From Gemmatimonas sp. (GTDB taxonomy: Bacteria; Gemmatimonadota; Gemmatimonadetes; Gemmatimonadales; Gemmatimonadaceae): a stretch of 64,000 nt of DNA. The DNA is taken from contig NZ_JAPZSK010000002.1 in the NCBI RefSeq assembly GCF_027531815.1, forward strand, positions 434,001 to 498,000, read 5' to 3'. The position numbers and the translations under genes are program-made. The notes under the pieces are model-generated. The model was not told where the DNA came from. It saw nothing but the letters and a program-made list of their open reading frames with translations, and did not search any database. This document shows, one piece after another, positions 13,585 through 59,749 of the stretch (position 1 is its first letter; each line of letters begins with the position of its first letter).

Positions 13585-13983
13585 CTAGCTGCGCGCGATC
13601 ACGCCGGCGAACGGGGCACGGAGCGTCTCCACCGCATCGGGTGGCAACAGCTCCTCGACCATGAGTGCCAGCAGGGCTGCCAGCGCTGGCTCCGCCACCG
13701 GATCCAGCAGGGCCAGCGCCTCGTCTTCGGTGGCCGGCGCCGGCGCGTTGACGGGGCGCACCAGCTGCAGCAGCGGGCCGGTCAGCGCATCCCGCTGCGG
13801 TTCGCGTCCACTGCGCTCGATCGCGGTGGCCAGGTGCTGCTCCGCGGCGCGCCACGTGTGGGTAGCGCTTACCTGGGTGTAGCGCTCCACCACCAGTCGG
13901 CGGTCGTCTTTCCCCAGCCCCGCCAGCTGCACGAGAAAGCGGCGTACGCCGGCGGTATTGGGGCCGTACGGCTGCGCGCTCAC
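13585..13983 (-). CDS. Hypothetical protein, 132 residues, coupled to the SDR gene
   Basis: I do not recognise this protein. It is mostly helical and acidic, with LVQLAGLGKDDRRLVVERYT near the N-terminus and an Ala/Leu-rich second half ending PFAGVIARS. No signal peptide or membrane segment is seen. The start is GTG at 13981-13983, which overlaps the stop of the upstream SDR gene as GTGA, a usual sign of coupled translation. An in-frame reading upstream of this GTG exists only through the minisatellite and is not used. Confidence 0.6.
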   Translation of the reverse strand: MSAQPYGPNTAGVRRFLVQLAGLGKDDRRLVVERYTQVSATHTWRAAEQHLATAIERSGREPQRDALTGPLLQLVRPVNAPAPATEDEALALLDPVAEPALAALLALMVEELLPPDAVETLRAPFAGVIARS

Positions 13984-14939
13984 GTCGGGTGTCCCGGAAG
14001 CGGGTGTCCCGGAAGCGGGTGGCCCGGAAGGGGGTGTCCCGGAAGCGGGTGGCCCGGAAGGGGGTGGCCCGGAAGGGGGTGTCCCAGTGCCCGCAGGCCA
14101 TCGAACACGGTGGGCATGGTGGGGCGCCAACCGGTGGCCAGCAGGGCGGCGCTGCTGATGCGCTGGTTGCTGCGCCCGGCGCGCACGGTCCCGTCGTCCA
14201 CCAGCGTCTCCGCCGCGCCCGCCGGGAGGCCGGTGAGGGCGTGGGTGATGGCCCCGGCCTGCACCGGCGTGTTGTCGGTGCAGTTGTAGATCGTGCCGCC
14301 GTGGGTTGCGGGGAGTGTGAGGACGTGCCGCATGGCCGCAATGACATCGTCGCGCCAGGAGAAGTTGCACCAGCTCTCCGGCTCAACGGATCCGGCGGCG
14401 AAGCGGGGGCCGGGATCCCGCCCCGGTCCGTAGAGCCCCGCCGCGCGCAGGACGGTTGCCCGACAGCCCGCCGCAGCGGCCGCAAGAACGGTGAGCTCCG
14501 CATCGAACAGCGCCCGCACCCGCTCGCTGGCTGGCGCAATCAGCGTGCGCTCATCCACGGCACTCCCGTCGTGACGATCGTACACGCCGGTGCTCGAGAT
14601 GTAGACCAGCGCCTCGGCGCCCAGCGCTTCGGCGATCGCGGCGGCACCGCGTGCGGCGGCCGGATACACGGCATAGCTGTCCCCACGCGCACGTGACGGT
14701 GCTACACACACGACGACCGCCGAGAGCGGCGCGGTCACCGCGCGGGCGAAGGCGGGGTCCGCCATGCCGCGGGTTACGTCCGCGGTCAGGGCCTGGCAGC
14801 CAACCGGTGCCTGCCGGTCGGATCGCGACGCCGTGAAGACGCGCCGCGTGGGCGAGGCCGCGGCCAGCGCGACCGCCGCCGGCGCTCCCAACCACCCCGG
14901 GCCAACGAGCAGGACGTCGCCCCCGGCATCATGCCCCAC
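13980..14939 (-). CDS. NAD-dependent epimerase/SDR-family protein with repetitive C-terminus
   Basis: The 319-residue protein starts at GTG 14939 with a Rossmann nucleotide loop ([11 protein letters not shown]), then [10 protein letters not shown] with the YISS strand, and a substrate region [15 protein letters not shown]. It resembles the YeeZ-like branch of extended short-chain dehydrogenases, whose substrates are largely unknown. The last 35 or so residues are a repeat of GHPLP units encoded by a 15-bp minisatellite (13987-14091), unlike any catalytic tail; copy-number change would lengthen or shorten the C-terminus. The stop overlaps the next start. Confidence 0.82.
13987..14091. repeat. 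15-bp minisatellite, about seven copies, inside the SDR gene end
   Basis: Seven tandem copies of a 15-base unit (gggtgtcccggaagc with two alternating variants) run without interruption. The unit length is a multiple of three, so on the minus strand it encodes GHPLP repeats at the SDR C-terminus and keeps the frame whatever the copy number. The last copy before the SDR body is diverged. Confidence 0.9.
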
Positions 14940-26195: not shown

Positions 26196-26268
<73 letters not shown>

Positions 26269-26467
26269 CTCATTCTTCGCAAACGGCGGTCTCCCTGTGG
26301 AGGCCGCCGTTTTGCGTTCGGGCCGGCAGTTCGGCTTGCCGAAACCGGGGGGATGGAGATCGGAGCGGCGAGTCGTGAGGGGTGAGGTAACGCGCACTCA
26401 CGGAGAGCACCGAGGTGGGGGAGGGGCACGGAGAGCGGCGACGGATGCCGAGCCGCAGGCGTTCATG

Positions 26468-26670
26468 CCCCACGATCGCCACCACCATCATCGCCCTGTC
26501 ACTCGCCTGCCGGGGAATGATGAGGCGCGCGTAGCGCTGCCTCCTGGAGGGGCGGGGGAAACGCGGAATCACCGCGATCACCGAGGCGGTCGAGGACACA
26601 GAGAACTGCCGGCGCGAGCCTCCATGCCCTCCACCGTCTCGGTGATCTCCGTGAACACGCGTTCCCCTCA
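26468..26670. repeat. Direct repeat, left copy, flanking the GxxExxY gene
   Basis: About 203 bases that recur at 27082-27284 in the same orientation, with roughly 14 mismatches by eye. The best-conserved core runs from catcatcgccctgtcactcg to gaggacacagagaactg. Immediately before it, at about 26389-26440, a weaker similarity to the core suggests an older degenerate third copy. No coding sequence is evident in the repeat. Confidence 0.88.
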
Positions 26671-26696
26671 GGTCTCACGAGCGTTTCCCTCACCGC

Positions 26697-27080
26697 TCAC
26701 CTCTCGCCGTCGTACACCAGGCGCTGCACGCCGTCGATGAGGCGCTCGAAGCCGAAGTTGATGAGCAGGCCGGTGCGATGGCCGGAGAGCCGCAGGTAGG
26801 TGAGCAGCTGTCTCAGGTGGGCATCATGGGAACGGTCGCTGCACTTGAGCTCCACCACGATGCGCTCGTTCACCAACAGGTCAATGCGGTAGCCTACCGG
26901 TACCGTGTGGCCATCGAAGGTGACCGGGAAGAGGCACTGGCGGTGTACCACGAGGCCGCGCTTCACGAGCGCCAGTGCCAGAAACTCCTCGTACGCCGCT
27001 TCGAAGACGCGAGAGCCAAGACGACGGTGAATGCGAATGGCCTCGCCGATGATGATGCCGGTCAGGTCGTCGTCGGTCAT
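26697..27080 (-). CDS. GxxExxY-family protein with PD-(D/E)XK nuclease-like motif
   Basis: The 127-residue product matches the GxxExxY family: the naming motif near the N-terminus appears as GSRVFEAAYEEFLALAL, followed by YRIDLLVNERIVVELK, which supplies the Asp and the E-x-K of a PD-(D/E)XK active site, and the closing LLTYLRLSGHRTGLLINFG. The family's biological role is not known. ATG 27080 lies two bases from the right-hand direct repeat, so its ribosome-binding site (GGGGG just upstream) is inside the repeat; the stop lies 26 bases from the left-hand copy. The whole 26468-27284 unit looks like one transposed or duplicated module. Confidence 0.9.
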   Translation of the reverse strand: MTDDDLTGIIIGEAIRIHRRLGSRVFEAAYEEFLALALVKRGLVVHRQCLFPVTFDGHTVPVGYRIDLLVNERIVVELKCSDRSHDAHLRQLLTYLRLSGHRTGLLINFGFERLIDGVQRLVYDGER

Positions 27081-27081
27081 C

Positions 27082-27284
27082 CCCCACTATCGCCACTATC
27101 ATCATCGCCCTGTCACTCGCCTGCCGGGGAATGATGAGGCGCGCGTAGCGCTGCCTCCTGGAGGCGCAGGGGAAACGCGGAATCACCGCGATCACCGAGG
27201 AGGTCGAGGACACAGAGAACTGCTGGCGCGAGCCTCCACGTCCTCCACCGCCTCCGTGCTCTCTGTGAGCACGCGTTCCCCTCA
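27082..27284. repeat. Direct repeat, right copy, flanking the GxxExxY gene
   Basis: Second copy of the 203-base repeat seen at 26468-26670, same orientation. It abuts the GxxExxY start codon. It is followed at 27285-27326 by a short satellite of cgtctcac units up to the end of the PFOR gene. Confidence 0.88.
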
Positions 27285-27324: not shown

Positions 27325-30300
27325 TCAGGCGATCACCTCGGCCAGCACCGCCGCCAGGTTGGCCTTGGCCTGCGCCACCGGGAGTTCGCCCCTGTCGATG
27401 CGCCCCAGCAGCGTGCGCTGCGCCAGATAGTCCCGGTTCACGATCCCGGCCTTGCTCTGCAGCATGCGCCACGACTTGCGACGCTCCACGGCGAACAGCA
27501 CCATCTGCCGCGTCACGGCATAGTACCGGAACGCCCCCTTCACCTCGGCCTTGATGTAGCAGCCGAAGTTGGGGATGAAGCTGCGGTGCGATTCGCTGAA
27601 CACGTGCCGGTACGTCACGTCGTCCTGCGTGACGAAGTACAGCTGGTCGTGCATGGGCACCAGCGTGGCCGCTTCGGCTTCGCTGATCTGCTTGAGATGC
27701 TTGCGGAAGCGCCCCTCGGTGAGCGCCCAGTGGGCCACGCCGAACGTATACGCCTCGCCGTTGCTGGCGTACTTGGTGTGCCACCAGTCACGGTCCACGC
27801 TGGGGTTGCCCTTCAGGTCGAAGGCTTCCTGCACCGTCTCGCCGCGCCGCGGGTTGAACACCCATTCCGGCACGCCGCGCGCATCACGCACCATGCTGGC
27901 CTGATCGGCGCTCATGTTGTCGGCCACGCCGTGTTCGGGCTGGCAGGTGGTGTAGCACTGGTAGAAGGCCGTCCCGCGGTACTCGAGCCCATCCAGCATG
28001 GCCTTGTACATGCGCGGGGCATTCGCGACCGACACCTGCGCCACGAACGGCGATCCATGCCCGCTCGTGAACGCCTCGGCCACGTTCTTCTTCTCGGTGA
28101 GCTTACCCTGCGACGCGACACCGAACTGGTTCATGTCGTAGCCGCCCAGCATCGTGGACGAGTCAGAGTTCTGGCCGCCGGTGTTGGAGTACACCTGCGT
28201 GTCGAGCATCAGCATCTTCACGTTAGGGCGATTCTGCAGCATCACCTTCGACACGTTCTGGAAGCCGATATCCCCGAGCGCGCCGTCGCCGCCGACGACC
28301 CAGACCTTGGGCAGCTCGCGCACCTCCTGGTCGGTCATGAGCGTGTCATCGAGGTGTGTGAGGTGGAAGTAATCTTCCTCGCTCATTACCCCGCGGGTGT
28401 GCTCCAGCAAAGCATCGGACAAACGCTCCGGGGCGACCGAGCGCCGCGCATGCTCCACGATCACCGACTCCGCCATGAGCCATGAAATCGTGGCCCCGTC
28501 CTGGAAGAGGGAGTTCATCCAGGGATAGGCGTGCGGGTTGGCCGGCGGGGTGGATCCGTACACGGTGTTGCAGCCGGTGCTGGCGCCCATCATCATGACC
28601 GACATGCCGTTGGCGCGGCGCCCGTCGATGGCCTGCAGCTCACGGTGGTTGAAGGCGTCCTGGCGCAGGGCCGCCGCGAGCCCACCCACGATCTGCTCAT
28701 CGCTGATCGGACCGTGAAGCGCCTCGTAGGCGGCAACACGGTTGGCGGTGTCCGTGTCGTTCTCGCCGCCCAGCCCCATCACAATGTGGATGAACGCCGT
28801 GCGGAATCGTGCATAGTCCGCCGCGTCAGACGCCTTGAGTGCCGCCAGACGCGCCGCGCCATCCTGCGCGACACGGTCCGCCTTGGCGGTGAGACGATCG
28901 GCCTTTCTGTGGTACAGCGGGCGCATGTACGCTTCCGTGATGCTGGCAATGGAGCGCAGCACGCTCTTCTCGCCGCACCCGGCGCAAGCGCCATCGCCAC
29001 TCACCAGCGCCTCGTAGTTGCGCCGCACCATGAGATGATTGCGCAGCGTGGCGTCCTTGGAGCTGGTGATGTCGCTGTCGTTGTACAGCCCGAGATACTT
29101 CTGCGGCGTATCGGGAAGCAACCGGGAGAACACCTGAGCTGTGGTGAGCTCCGCGTTGAGCTCCTCGGTTTCGCGCGTCATGCGCAGCGCGTCATGGTCG
29201 CCGCACACCTGCACGCATTCGCCGCACCCCTTGCACAGGTCCGACACGAAGATCGAGAAGAGTCCCCCCTCGCCTGGGGTCTTGGCCTCGACGGTGCGGA
29301 AGATGGCCGGAACGTTGCTGTACGCCAGCGGCAGCTTGTCGATGATGCCCGTGAACTCTGCCCGTGACTGCTCGGAAACGCCGCCAACGGCCGCCACCTC
29401 CTCGCGCACGATCGTCTTGAACGGGACACCGCTCTTGCCCTTCACCGACTCGTTCATGCGTGTCCGTGCCCTTGCCTCCAGGTCGGGCAGGGCAGCCAGC
29501 AGCGCCTGCCGGTCGCCGCCATCGCGCACGTAGTTCACGACGGCGGTGCGCAGCACCGTACCCACCTCCTGCGCCGTGTTGGGGAGCGCCGTGTCGGGGC
29601 ACACGGAGATGCACTCCATGCACTGCGTGCAGTTCTCCGGCACATACACCGGCGTTTCCCGGCGCGCGACGTACTTGGATTGCGTCGCGCCGGTGGCCGC
29701 AGCCATGATGCCCACCGAGGCCAGCGCGCTCGCCGGCTGGTGGTACCCCAGCCCGGCGCGGAACTCGCGGTCGAACGTCTCCCGGGTCTTGAGGGGAGCA
29801 CGGGTCAACTGCGCCTCCGGGAAGGCAAACCCGCCGCTGCCGCAGCTCCCGCACCCCGCCGTGGGCGGAAAGTGCTGCTCGGGGTACGGGGCCAGCAGCG
29901 GATTGCGCATGCTCGACCGGTCGGGATCGTCCGTGCGACCCACGGTGATTTCCACGGCGCGCGCGAAGCCCTCGTTCATGACCGTCATGTTCGACTCCAC
30001 CACGGCATCGCCGAAGCGGGCGAACTTCTTCACGTACTGCTTGTGAACGATCTGCTGGAACTGCTCCGGCGTGAGGTGATACCGATCGAGAAACGGTGAG
30101 ACGCGGAAGAAGGCGCCCAGGAACGCATTGCCCTGCATGCGCAGTTGCAGCTCGGTCTGACTGGTGGCCTTCCGGGCAATGTCGAAGCCGGGAAGGATGT
30201 ACACCGTGATGTCGTGGTCGAGGATGAACTCGCGGTGCACCGCGGGGATGCGCTGCCAGGCGGAATCGGCGCTTTCGCTCGACTCCCACACCAGCACGCC

Positions 30301-32052
30301 ACCGCGCTTGAGTCCTTCCAGCGGGTTGGTGTGCGTGAAGGCCTTGGGATCACAGCAGAGCACCACGTCCACGTGATTGAGTTCGCAGTTCACCTTGATC
30401 TGCGACGGCGCCACCGTGAGATAGTAGTTCGTGGGGGCGCCCTTCTTCTCCGATCCGTACTTGGGGTTGGCCATCACGAAGAGCTTGTCTTCGAGAATCC
30501 CCTCCTCGTCGTACGTGGGGTCCTGTTCGGCCAGATACTGCCCGAGGTCGCCAATGATGGCGCCGAGGTTCTTGCCGGTCGTGATCATCCCCCAGCCGCC
30601 AATCGAGTGGAACCGCACGGCAATCGCGCCGTCCGGCAGGAGGCTGGGCGTATCCTTGCTGATGACGGCATACGGGTGTTGCACGCCCAGCACGAAGTAG
30701 CCCTCACCGTCCTCGGCGGTGCGGCCGTCGGTCCGGGCGGAGACGCCGGTGGCGAACTCGTACGCCCCAATGATGTGCTCGGGGCGGAAGTCGCGTGAGC
30801 CAATGCCATACGCGCCACGGAAGAGGCGGGGCGTGTCGTCTGGCGTGATGCCGGGGAGCTCGCCGCCGTAGCGCGTGGCTTCGCTGGCCTTGCCGAGGGC
30901 GACGCGGATATCGCGGGCCAGCGGGTTGTCGCCGGCGAGGCTCTCGTCGGTGCGCTCGAGGATGATCACGCGCCGCTTGCCGCGCAACGCCTCGATGACT
31001 GCGGCCTCCGGGAAGGGGCGAATGACGTTGATGTGGATCGATCCGACCTTCGCGTTGCGCTGGTCGCGCAGGTAATCGCAGGCGGCCTCGATGTTCTCCG
31101 CCGCGCAGCCGAGCGACACGAAGACCGTGTCGGCGTCGTCGGTCTTGTACCGGGTGACGAAGCCGTACTCGCGGCCGGTGAGTTCGCCAAACGCTGTGTA
31201 CGCCGCGTCGAGCATGGGGAGCACATGCTCACTGAAGTTGTTGCGCCGTGCCACCACGCCGTTCATGTGATGCTCCTGATTCTGTACCGGGCCAAGCAGC
31301 GCCGGGTTCTTCAGGTCCATCATTTGCGGCACGCGGCGGCGCGTGGGGCCGAACAGTTCGCGCTGCGCCGGGGTGGGGCAGGGGATGATGTCGTCGGGGG
31401 CGCCGAGGTACTCGCGCAGGAACTCCGCCTCCGGGGCCAGGTACATGCGCTCACTGTGCGTGGTGAGCATGCCGTCCTGAATGTTCATCCCCGGGTTGAG
31501 CGCCTGCTCGCAGACCTTGCGCAGGATGATCGATTGATCGGCCGCCTGCTGCGCATCGCGTGCCATGAGCATGATCCACCCGGTGTCGAGCGCCGAGTAG
31601 ATGTCGTCGTGTGCGCAGTGCACGTTGAGTGCGTGCTTGGTGAGGGCGCGGGCACCCACCTGCAGCACCATGGTGGAGAGCTTGCCGGGGGCATGGTAGT
31701 ACTGCTCCATCGCGTACACGATGCCCTGGCCGCTGGTGAAGTTCACCGTGCGTCGCCCGGTGACCGCGAAGGCCGTGGCTCCCCCCTGCGCGGCATGCTC
31801 ACCTTCGGTTTCGGCGGCGACCTTCTGCTGCCCCCAGACGTTCAGTTCACCGGTGGCGAACGACGCCTGATAGATCTCCCCGCCCTCGGTGGACGGGGTG
31901 ATGGGGTAGAAGACGCCGCCTTCGGTAATGCGCGTTTCCACGTACTGCGTGACCAGCTGGTTGCCGCTGCAAGTCACGTGAAAGCCGGGATACTTGTGCT
32001 TCCCGTGCCGGGGGGGCGGCGTGGGCGTGGCGGAGACCGTGGCGTCGGACAT
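27325..32052 (-). CDS. nifJ: Pyruvate:ferredoxin (flavodoxin) oxidoreductase, long form
   Basis: The 1575-residue protein is a single-chain PFOR but about 400 residues longer than the common 1170-1200. Order: PFOR domain I (YPITPSTEGGEIYQA), domain II, the gamma domain (HSIGGWGMITTGKNLG), a Cys-rich patch CGSCGSGG, two 4Fe-4S sites (CTQCMECISVCP at 808-818 and CKGCGECVQVC at 940-950), the CAGCGEKSVLRS thiamine-domain start near 1022 and the diphosphate-binding GGDGALGDIGFQNVSK near 1253. It oxidises pyruvate to acetyl-CoA and passes electrons to ferredoxin. The extra length sits mostly between the iron-sulfur part and the C-terminus. ATG 32052; isolated on its strand. Confidence 0.93.
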   Translation of the reverse strand: MSDATVSATPTPPPRHGKHKYPGFHVTCSGNQLVTQYVETRITEGGVFYPITPSTEGGEIYQASFATGELNVWGQQKVAAETEGEHAAQGGATAFAVTGRRTVNFTSGQGIVYAMEQYYHAPGKLSTMVLQVGARALTKHALNVHCAHDDIYSALDTGWIMLMARDAQQAADQSIILRKVCEQALNPGMNIQDGMLTTHSERMYLAPEAEFLREYLGAPDDIIPCPTPAQRELFGPTRRRVPQMMDLKNPALLGPVQNQEHHMNGVVARRNNFSEHVLPMLDAAYTAFGELTGREYGFVTRYKTDDADTVFVSLGCAAENIEAACDYLRDQRNAKVGSIHINVIRPFPEAAVIEALRGKRRVIILERTDESLAGDNPLARDIRVALGKASEATRYGGELPGITPDDTPRLFRGAYGIGSRDFRPEHIIGAYEFATGVSARTDGRTAEDGEGYFVLGVQHPYAVISKDTPSLLPDGAIAVRFHSIGGWGMITTGKNLGAIIGDLGQYLAEQDPTYDEEGILEDKLFVMANPKYGSEKKGAPTNYYLTVAPSQIKVNCELNHVDVVLCCDPKAFTHTNPLEGLKRGGVLVWESSESADSAWQRIPAVHREFILDHDITVYILPGFDIARKATSQTELQLRMQGNAFLGAFFRVSPFLDRYHLTPEQFQQIVHKQYVKKFARFGDAVVESNMTVMNEGFARAVEITVGRTDDPDRSSMRNPLLAPYPEQHFPPTAGCGSCGSGGFAFPEAQLTRAPLKTRETFDREFRAGLGYHQPASALASVGIMAAATGATQSKYVARRETPVYVPENCTQCMECISVCPDTALPNTAQEVGTVLRTAVVNYVRDGGDRQALLAALPDLEARARTRMNESVKGKSGVPFKTIVREEVAAVGGVSEQSRAEFTGIIDKLPLAYSNVPAIFRTVEAKTPGEGGLFSIFVSDLCKGCGECVQVCGDHDALRMTRETEELNAELTTAQVFSRLLPDTPQKYLGLYNDSDITSSKDATLRNHLMVRRNYEALVSGDGACAGCGEKSVLRSIASITEAYMRPLYHRKADRLTAKADRVAQDGAARLAALKASDAADYARFRTAFIHIVMGLGGENDTDTANRVAAYEALHGPISDEQIVGGLAAALRQDAFNHRELQAIDGRRANGMSVMMMGASTGCNTVYGSTPPANPHAYPWMNSLFQDGATISWLMAESVIVEHARRSVAPERLSDALLEHTRGVMSEEDYFHLTHLDDTLMTDQEVRELPKVWVVGGDGALGDIGFQNVSKVMLQNRPNVKMLMLDTQVYSNTGGQNSDSSTMLGGYDMNQFGVASQGKLTEKKNVAEAFTSGHGSPFVAQVSVANAPRMYKAMLDGLEYRGTAFYQCYTTCQPEHGVADNMSADQASMVRDARGVPEWVFNPRRGETVQEAFDLKGNPSVDRDWWHTKYASNGEAYTFGVAHWALTEGRFRKHLKQISEAEAATLVPMHDQLYFVTQDDVTYRHVFSESHRSFIPNFGCYIKAEVKGAFRYYAVTRQMVLFAVERRKSWRMLQSKAGIVNRDYLAQRTLLGRIDRGELPVAQAKANLAAVLAEVIA

Positions 32053-59569: not shown

Positions 59570-59640
59570 TCGGTTGTCGTCACGACCGCCAACACCGGAC
59601 AGCGCCAACTGAGAACTGACAACTACAACTAGAAACTGAA

Positions 59641-59674
59641 AACCTCCCGGATATCACGTGATCTCCGGGAGGTT
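59641..59674. terminator. Bidirectional hairpin between gluQ and the M20 peptidase
   Basis: AACCTCCCGGA and TCCGGGAGGTT form an 11-base stem; the loop itself holds the palindrome ATCACGTGAT, so the whole 34-base element can fold almost completely. It lies between convergent genes and suits both. Confidence 0.75.
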
Positions 59675-59749
59675 CTGAGTTCTGAGTTCTGAGTTCTGAG
59701 TCCTTAGTTCTTAGTCCTCAGTCCTTAGTCCTTAGTCATTAGTTCTCAT
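59673..59749. repeat. Heptamer satellite (ttctgag/tccttag), eleven copies
   Basis: Four ttctgag units are followed by seven diverged ones of the tccttag type. On the other side of the hairpin (about 59607-59640) units like ctgagaa and ctgacaa occur, so related heptamers flank the palindrome on both sides. Confidence 0.8.

Follow-up and report, generated by a model that had tools for sequence, protein, structure and literature searches.

The window (the whole stretch of 64,000 nucleotides that was analysed) contains a small gene of the GxxExxY family that is bracketed by long palindromes. We put at just over one half the probability that this locus belongs to a widespread family of single-gene units armed with hairpins, in which the protein recognises and cuts its own hairpin. 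GxxExxY is a widespread nuclease-fold family without an assigned function and with almost no literature. The anatomy of the units, the association of gene with palindrome, the dispersal, the empty sites, the complementarity of the arms, the match between unit and protein, and the purifying selection on the gene are all apparent in the sequences compared here.

Anatomy of the locus and its orthologous sites

The GxxExxY gene lies on the minus strand at 26697–27080 and encodes a protein of 127 amino acids, as found by profile searches and translation. On its two sides are the direct repeats R1 (26460–26670) and R2 (27074–27284), which align in register over 211 nt with 16 mismatches (92.4% identity). 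A preliminary description of this DNA had rightly noticed direct repeats around one small gene, but gave their size as about 203 bp and the differences as about 14. It also ended one repeat two bases before the start codon, where in fact R2 extends through the start codon and four bases further into the gene (27074–27080).

Within each repeat is an imperfect palindrome of about 112 bp, a feature absent from that first reading, which consists of two 48-nt arms whose purine-rich units are each about 9 nt long. In R2 this hairpin is at 27170–27281, with arms of about 48 nt, a loop of about 16 nt, a DNA fold z of −3.8 and the units CACNGAGNN; the rest of R2 is a linker of about 95 bp, which is the 5' leader of the gene including the start codon. 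The R1 hairpin is at 26556–26667 (fold z −5.1), and its arms (26556–26603 and 26620–26667) are 77% complementary. R1 has the leader and ATG without the gene body, followed by a short stretch and then by half a palindrome at 26386–26437. The latter had been seen in the preliminary description as a weaker third copy to the left. It is real, and the 80% complementarity of 26386–26425 to the right arm of R1 identifies it as one half of a palindrome. Because the leader and ATG are followed by this half palindrome, the two together can be read as a unit minus its gene; they would represent a decayed second unit, derived from tandem duplication of linker and hairpin. Far from the locus, the window also has a short loopless palindrome at 59634–59681 (AACTGAAAACCTCCCGGATATCAC / GTGATCTCCGGGAGGTTCTGAGTT), whose AACTG end resembles the ends of the hairpin family.

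A tRNA-Gly(ccc) gene is present on the plus strand at 26196–26269, as previously reported. On the other side is a minus-strand gene (27325–32052) that we take, from its sequence alone, to encode a pyruvate:ferredoxin (flavodoxin) oxidoreductase-like protein, and which was used as the anchor for finding the orthologous site. Beside the same gene, genome G003 carries a GxxExxY gene with 81% identity across the domain, again set between hairpins. In G021 the site has a hairpin of another kind but lacks GxxExxY, and in G016 and G007 both are missing. A metallophosphatase-like gene of G021 separates the site from tRNA-Gly. The adjacency to the tRNA, which the preliminary description had pointed out, is therefore judged incidental, and tRNA-directed integration was rejected.

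In the sister species G005, two contigs end within one repeat with an exact overlap of 132 bp, and when joined give one repeat and no gene. This is a candidate for a single-repeat remnant or empty site at the orthologous locus, as envisaged in the preliminary description, with contig ends that are ambiguous in that a dropped short contig bearing the gene could mimic it. The G005 copy has 88.0 and 85.3% identity to R1 and R2, below the 92.4% between R1 and R2 themselves, which indicates that R1 and R2 were duplicated or converted after the split from G005.

The full 211-bp repeat has two copies in the genome, both at this locus, whereas the palindrome core without the gene occurs at no fewer than nine further places. 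At locus C12 (L027, G000:C12 ~13660-14300) there are three tandem copies of about 180 bp, each of linker plus hairpin, with no GxxExxY gene. This array is common to G005 and is absent from G001, G020 and G021. Since the palindrome recurs, and since similar tandem copies stand gene-less at C12, the earlier view of the long direct repeats as the ends of the unit is not supported; what recurs is the palindrome that they contain. The broader suggestion, of a unit that is mobile or domesticated and belongs to none of the standard insertion sequence families, does hold up, given the dispersed core, and the palindromic flanks and empty sites found elsewhere (below).

The GxxExxY protein

The family assignment was confirmed by profile searches, in which the window protein matches TIGR04256 over its full length with 110.9 bits (cut-off 35) and PF13366 PDDEXK_3 with 112.3 bits (cut-off 22). 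There are three GxxExxY genes in this genome, and almost every genome of the genus has from 1 to 8. The D...ExK nuclease residues noted previously are present as D67, E77 and K79, and the active-site set also includes Q91 and Y95. Relatives conserve the D, the ExK and the QxxxY pair, with E77 and K79 invariant. Within the genus set, E27 and Y30 of the GxxExxY motif are invariant; among 35 sequences from several phyla E27, E77 and K79 are invariant, with Y30 and D67 conserved in at least 90%. The flank of the motif in the window copy is a variant, LGSRVFEAAY. Values of dN/dS are about 0.05–0.18 in most ortholog pairs, and to judge from its codons the family is under purifying selection. In one pair (G000:C14:181062 and G005:C20:131452; L032, L131) the codons of the GxxExxY domain are identical (dS 0); other compared loci of G000 and G005 differ by several percent. 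A recent transfer or conversion of this pair is possible.

The structural model has a pLDDT of 93.5. Its best match in Foldseek is Cas4 SSO0001 (4ic1, E 6e-4; VIA Z 9.5), and the next-nearest folds are lambda-type exonucleases and Hjc resolvases; a Z value below 8 is not strong evidence. On the basis of the model, GxxExxY is predicted to be a nuclease of the Cas4/RecB-like PD-(D/E)XK fold, with an active site that looks intact. The 127 residues of the window protein include only two cysteines, too few for a four-cysteine Fe-S cluster. A sequence search of the PDB found no relative. PADLOC returned only weak matches to Cas4 or RT-associated PDDEXK, and a role as a known defence system is accordingly unsupported. 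No Y1/HUH tyrosine transposase domain was found in GxxExxY, which matched only PDDEXK_3 and, weakly, the Cas4/RT-associated PDDEXK profiles; nor did profile searches find a DDE transposase in the unit. There is little sign of carriage by phages or plasmids, since GxxExxY has no match in PHROGs and only five plasmid records were matched. A full-text search of open-access journal papers found no description of an association between GxxExxY and palindromes, and the rare mentions of the family, in the passages available, are made in passing and do not concern such repeats.

Association, specificity and dispersal of the palindromes

A total of 166 GxxExxY loci were compared, from the genus itself, other Gemmatimonadota, Sphingomonadaceae, and a mixed group of Verrucomicrobiota, Planctomycetota and other Proteobacteria. 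A palindrome beside the gene, or a pair of arms spanning it, was found at 136 of them, against 5 of 307 control windows (p 4e-81, a value that overstates the number of independent cases because many loci are orthologous to each other, sphingomonads above all). Other GxxExxY genes thus do carry similar flanks, as the preliminary description had thought possible. The association is present in all four groups, at 45/65 loci in the genus, 24/30 in other Gemmatimonadota, 44/45 in Sphingomonadaceae and 23/26 in the remainder; these cross-phylum rates are mainly valid for one subfamily, since the query was built from it. The count uses corrected gene ends, the sphingomonad ORF reading through the downstream arm. 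At 30 of the 166 loci no palindrome was detectable. A scan of GTDB gave 80 GxxExxY loci from several phyla. A looser threshold gives a hairpin at 145 of 175 loci, a count that has no control of its own and is unfit as evidence of enrichment.

In the genus, a strong inverted repeat follows within 350 nt downstream of 28 of 64 GxxExxY genes, compared with 23 of 349 random 3' ends (p 1e-12), the hairpin background at random gene ends being 6.6%. Inverted repeats that span the gene are found at 16 of 65 genus loci and at none of 124 shifted controls. The genus hairpins are mostly just 3' of the gene; in sphingomonads and several other lineages there is an arm on either side of it. A survey of 200 Gemmatimonadota genomes found the motif in 28 of the 60 with GxxExxY and in 9 of the 140 without (Fisher p 1.7e-10, calculated regardless of phylogeny). 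Two of these nine genomes have 31–41 copies.

The palindromes near GxxExxY genes have a unit period of about 9 nt (mean match 0.43, compared with about 0.29). The sequence of the arms differs from locus to locus, with complementarity being kept. This is clearly seen at the orthologous site on the glyS side, where the hairpin sequence drifts between species without loss of pairing, 14 of 33 pairs having changed on both sides. The number of double-change cells there is 26, against 9.1±2.1 after shuffling that ignores the relatedness of the sequences, and is reached by none of 500 shuffles. Sphingomonad arms, which are about 430 bp apart, give 18 double-change cells in the same kind of comparison (9.1±2.6 shuffled, 0/500). 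Arm-to-arm gene conversion could be a source of this signal. Among loci that are not syntenic, protein similarity also correlates with unit similarity from pair to pair (Mantel r 0.30, p 0.0005). By subfamily, CGGAT/CGGAA units accompany proteins of the RRxxW-type, and GAG units those of the DGIxRV-type (p 5e-12, or 2e-4 when syntenic duplicates are removed, leaving only five of the RRxxW-type). No Rfam family matches the hairpins. Some other intergenic hairpins in the genus (L095 in G007:C92, L339, L347 and L349) have units of about 7 nt, for example GTCAGTGGTCAG and CAGGGAG, and perhaps belong to the four-helix-bundle class discussed below.

Dispersal is evident in G104, a member of the Gemmatimonadota, in which the five GxxExxY loci checked have different unit types. 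An 84-nt hairpin that flanks one of these genes has at least some 40 dispersed copies with 83–98% identity (40 candidates scored), some of which are within the loops of another hairpin type. At L323 and L329 (G104:C2:294158, 341854) one hairpin type is found inside the loop of another. On sequence grounds, this nesting suggests insertion into hairpin loops. Three sphingomonads have 33–72 motif matches per genome, many of them paired as hairpins, against 6–15 for the reversed control.

In most of the sphingomonads sampled, about 40 species, an arm–gene–arm unit lies between genes that we take from their translations to be fabD and fabG, and in L168/G222 there is one between the presumed fabF and mltG. 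The corresponding junctions are bare in G222 (fabD–fabG) and G226 (fabF–mltG), so that the empty sites sought since the preliminary description are present here and, for the C12 array, in the related genomes that lack it. Many copies are old and vertically kept, as at the glyS site in nine genomes and the fabD–fabG site in about 40 species, which suggests that mobility is slow or past, or that these copies are domesticated. No target-site duplication was detected: for 17 copies of one hairpin type, the mean direct repeat was 2.76, compared with 2.56 for mispaired ends (p 0.13). Elements that act on single strands and recognise hairpins are expected to leave no target-site duplication. A hairpin/single-strand or repair-coupled route thus fits better than a DDE transposase.

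Possible mechanism and relation to known elements

On the basis of these observations, we propose that a full unit consists of a palindromic arm, the GxxExxY nuclease gene and a complementary arm. The window holds a variant, with two whole hairpins bracketing the gene, and the gene-less copies are hairpins of roughly 60–240 bp scattered between genes, similar to MITEs or REPs. The Cas4/RecB-like protein would recognise the hairpin or cruciform that its own unit type extrudes, and would cut or trim it, after which repair or replication would copy the unit, or the hairpin alone, to a new intergenic site. It is by analogy with RAYTs that we assign the cutting of the hairpin, and the dispersal that would follow, to the nuclease itself. 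A wider and more tentative reading is that GxxExxY proteins may be the mobilising nucleases of an undescribed class of mobile element, each lineage spreading its own palindrome type as units and as hairpins across phyla, with a parallel class having four-helix-bundle genes and 7-nt units.

The strongest rival, which we nevertheless consider rather unlikely, is that host replication or repair (template switching, inter-hairpin recombination) moves the hairpins, and that the GxxExxY and four-helix-bundle ORFs ride along as passengers and gain from the hairpin, their products being for instance selfish or hairpin-binding, with GxxExxY mobilising nothing. The TIGR02436 four-helix-bundle genes of the same bacterial order, with up to 12 per genome, have inverted-repeat arms spanning the gene at 24 of 30 loci (L352–L381), and differ in having units of about 7 nt. 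As these non-nucleases occur in the same architecture, the nuclease may be dispensable. The same conclusion would suit the genomes that are rich in the motif without GxxExxY, the gene-less tandem copies at C12, and the S23/IVS elements, in which long terminal inverted repeats enclose a short ORF in their loop and which are regarded as selfish elements (PMC4990558). Against a passenger role, the unit sequence tracks the GxxExxY subfamily, the presence of GxxExxY predicts that of the motif, and the protein has conserved active-site residues and is under purifying selection.

The hairpin could also be a functional RNA or transcript end that GxxExxY processes or binds, as autoregulation or as an RNA–nuclease pair, its spread being incidental. 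This would account for the position of most genus hairpins just downstream of the gene, and for the pairing that is kept despite sequence drift at orthologous sites, but is made improbable by the arms on both sides of the gene in sphingomonads and several other lineages, by the many hairpins with no gene nearby, and by the lack of an Rfam match. Finally, the segment around a conserved hypothetical gene by a tRNA might have been duplicated by chance, with no special meaning. This would be compatible with a full repeat found only twice in the genome and with the tandem linker and hairpin copies elsewhere. The recurrence of the palindrome–gene pairing, at 136 of 166 loci against 5 of 307 controls, leaves this with very little credibility.

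The proposed hairpin-armed units can be compared with several known systems. The features used here to recognise REP/RAYT systems are those of PMC2817692. Like these, the GxxExxY units have dispersed extragenic palindromes and a small single gene flanked by them; the palindrome type goes with the protein type (for GxxExxY, with syntenic duplicates removed but otherwise regardless of phylogeny); and the presence of the gene correlates with palindrome abundance (again regardless of phylogeny). Unlike them, the GxxExxY palindromes are longer, with units of about 9 nt and a sequence that varies by locus while complementarity is kept, and the enzyme is Cas4/RecB-like PD-(D/E)XK where RAYT is a Y1/HUH tyrosine enzyme. 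The other features being present and the Y1/HUH catalytic domain missing, the units are not a RAYT system, but by analogy we infer that they work in a similar way with an unrelated enzyme.

The 23S rRNA IVS with an S23 ORF similarly has its short ORF within the loop that closes a long terminal stem. It however sits in rRNA, is excised by RNase III and encodes a four-helix-bundle protein, whereas GxxExxY units are intergenic and encode a nuclease. The intergenic TIGR02436 units are a class parallel to the GxxExxY units. With MITEs and elements of the IS200-IS605 type, the units share gene-less hairpins dispersed between genes and the absence of target-site duplication, but they have no HUH/DDE transposase, and no known autonomous insertion sequence sharing their arms was found. 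Free-standing homing endonuclease genes resemble them in being single small nuclease genes at varied sites, with empty sites in relatives. The GxxExxY units differ in carrying their own palindromic arms, which also disperse without the gene, and in having neither an intron nor an intein, nor any sign of a homing site.

The pairing of gene and palindrome, as seen in sequence comparisons, suggests a small mobile element, selfish or domesticated, of a kind so far undescribed. The association provides GxxExxY with a concrete candidate substrate, namely its own hairpin type. It also suggests that a single class of dispersed element accounts for many of the unexplained intergenic palindromes with 9-nt units in Gemmatimonadota, Sphingomonadaceae, Verrucomicrobiota and Planctomycetota, and that evolution may have arrived twice at a biology like that of REP/RAYT, the second time by way of an unrelated enzyme.
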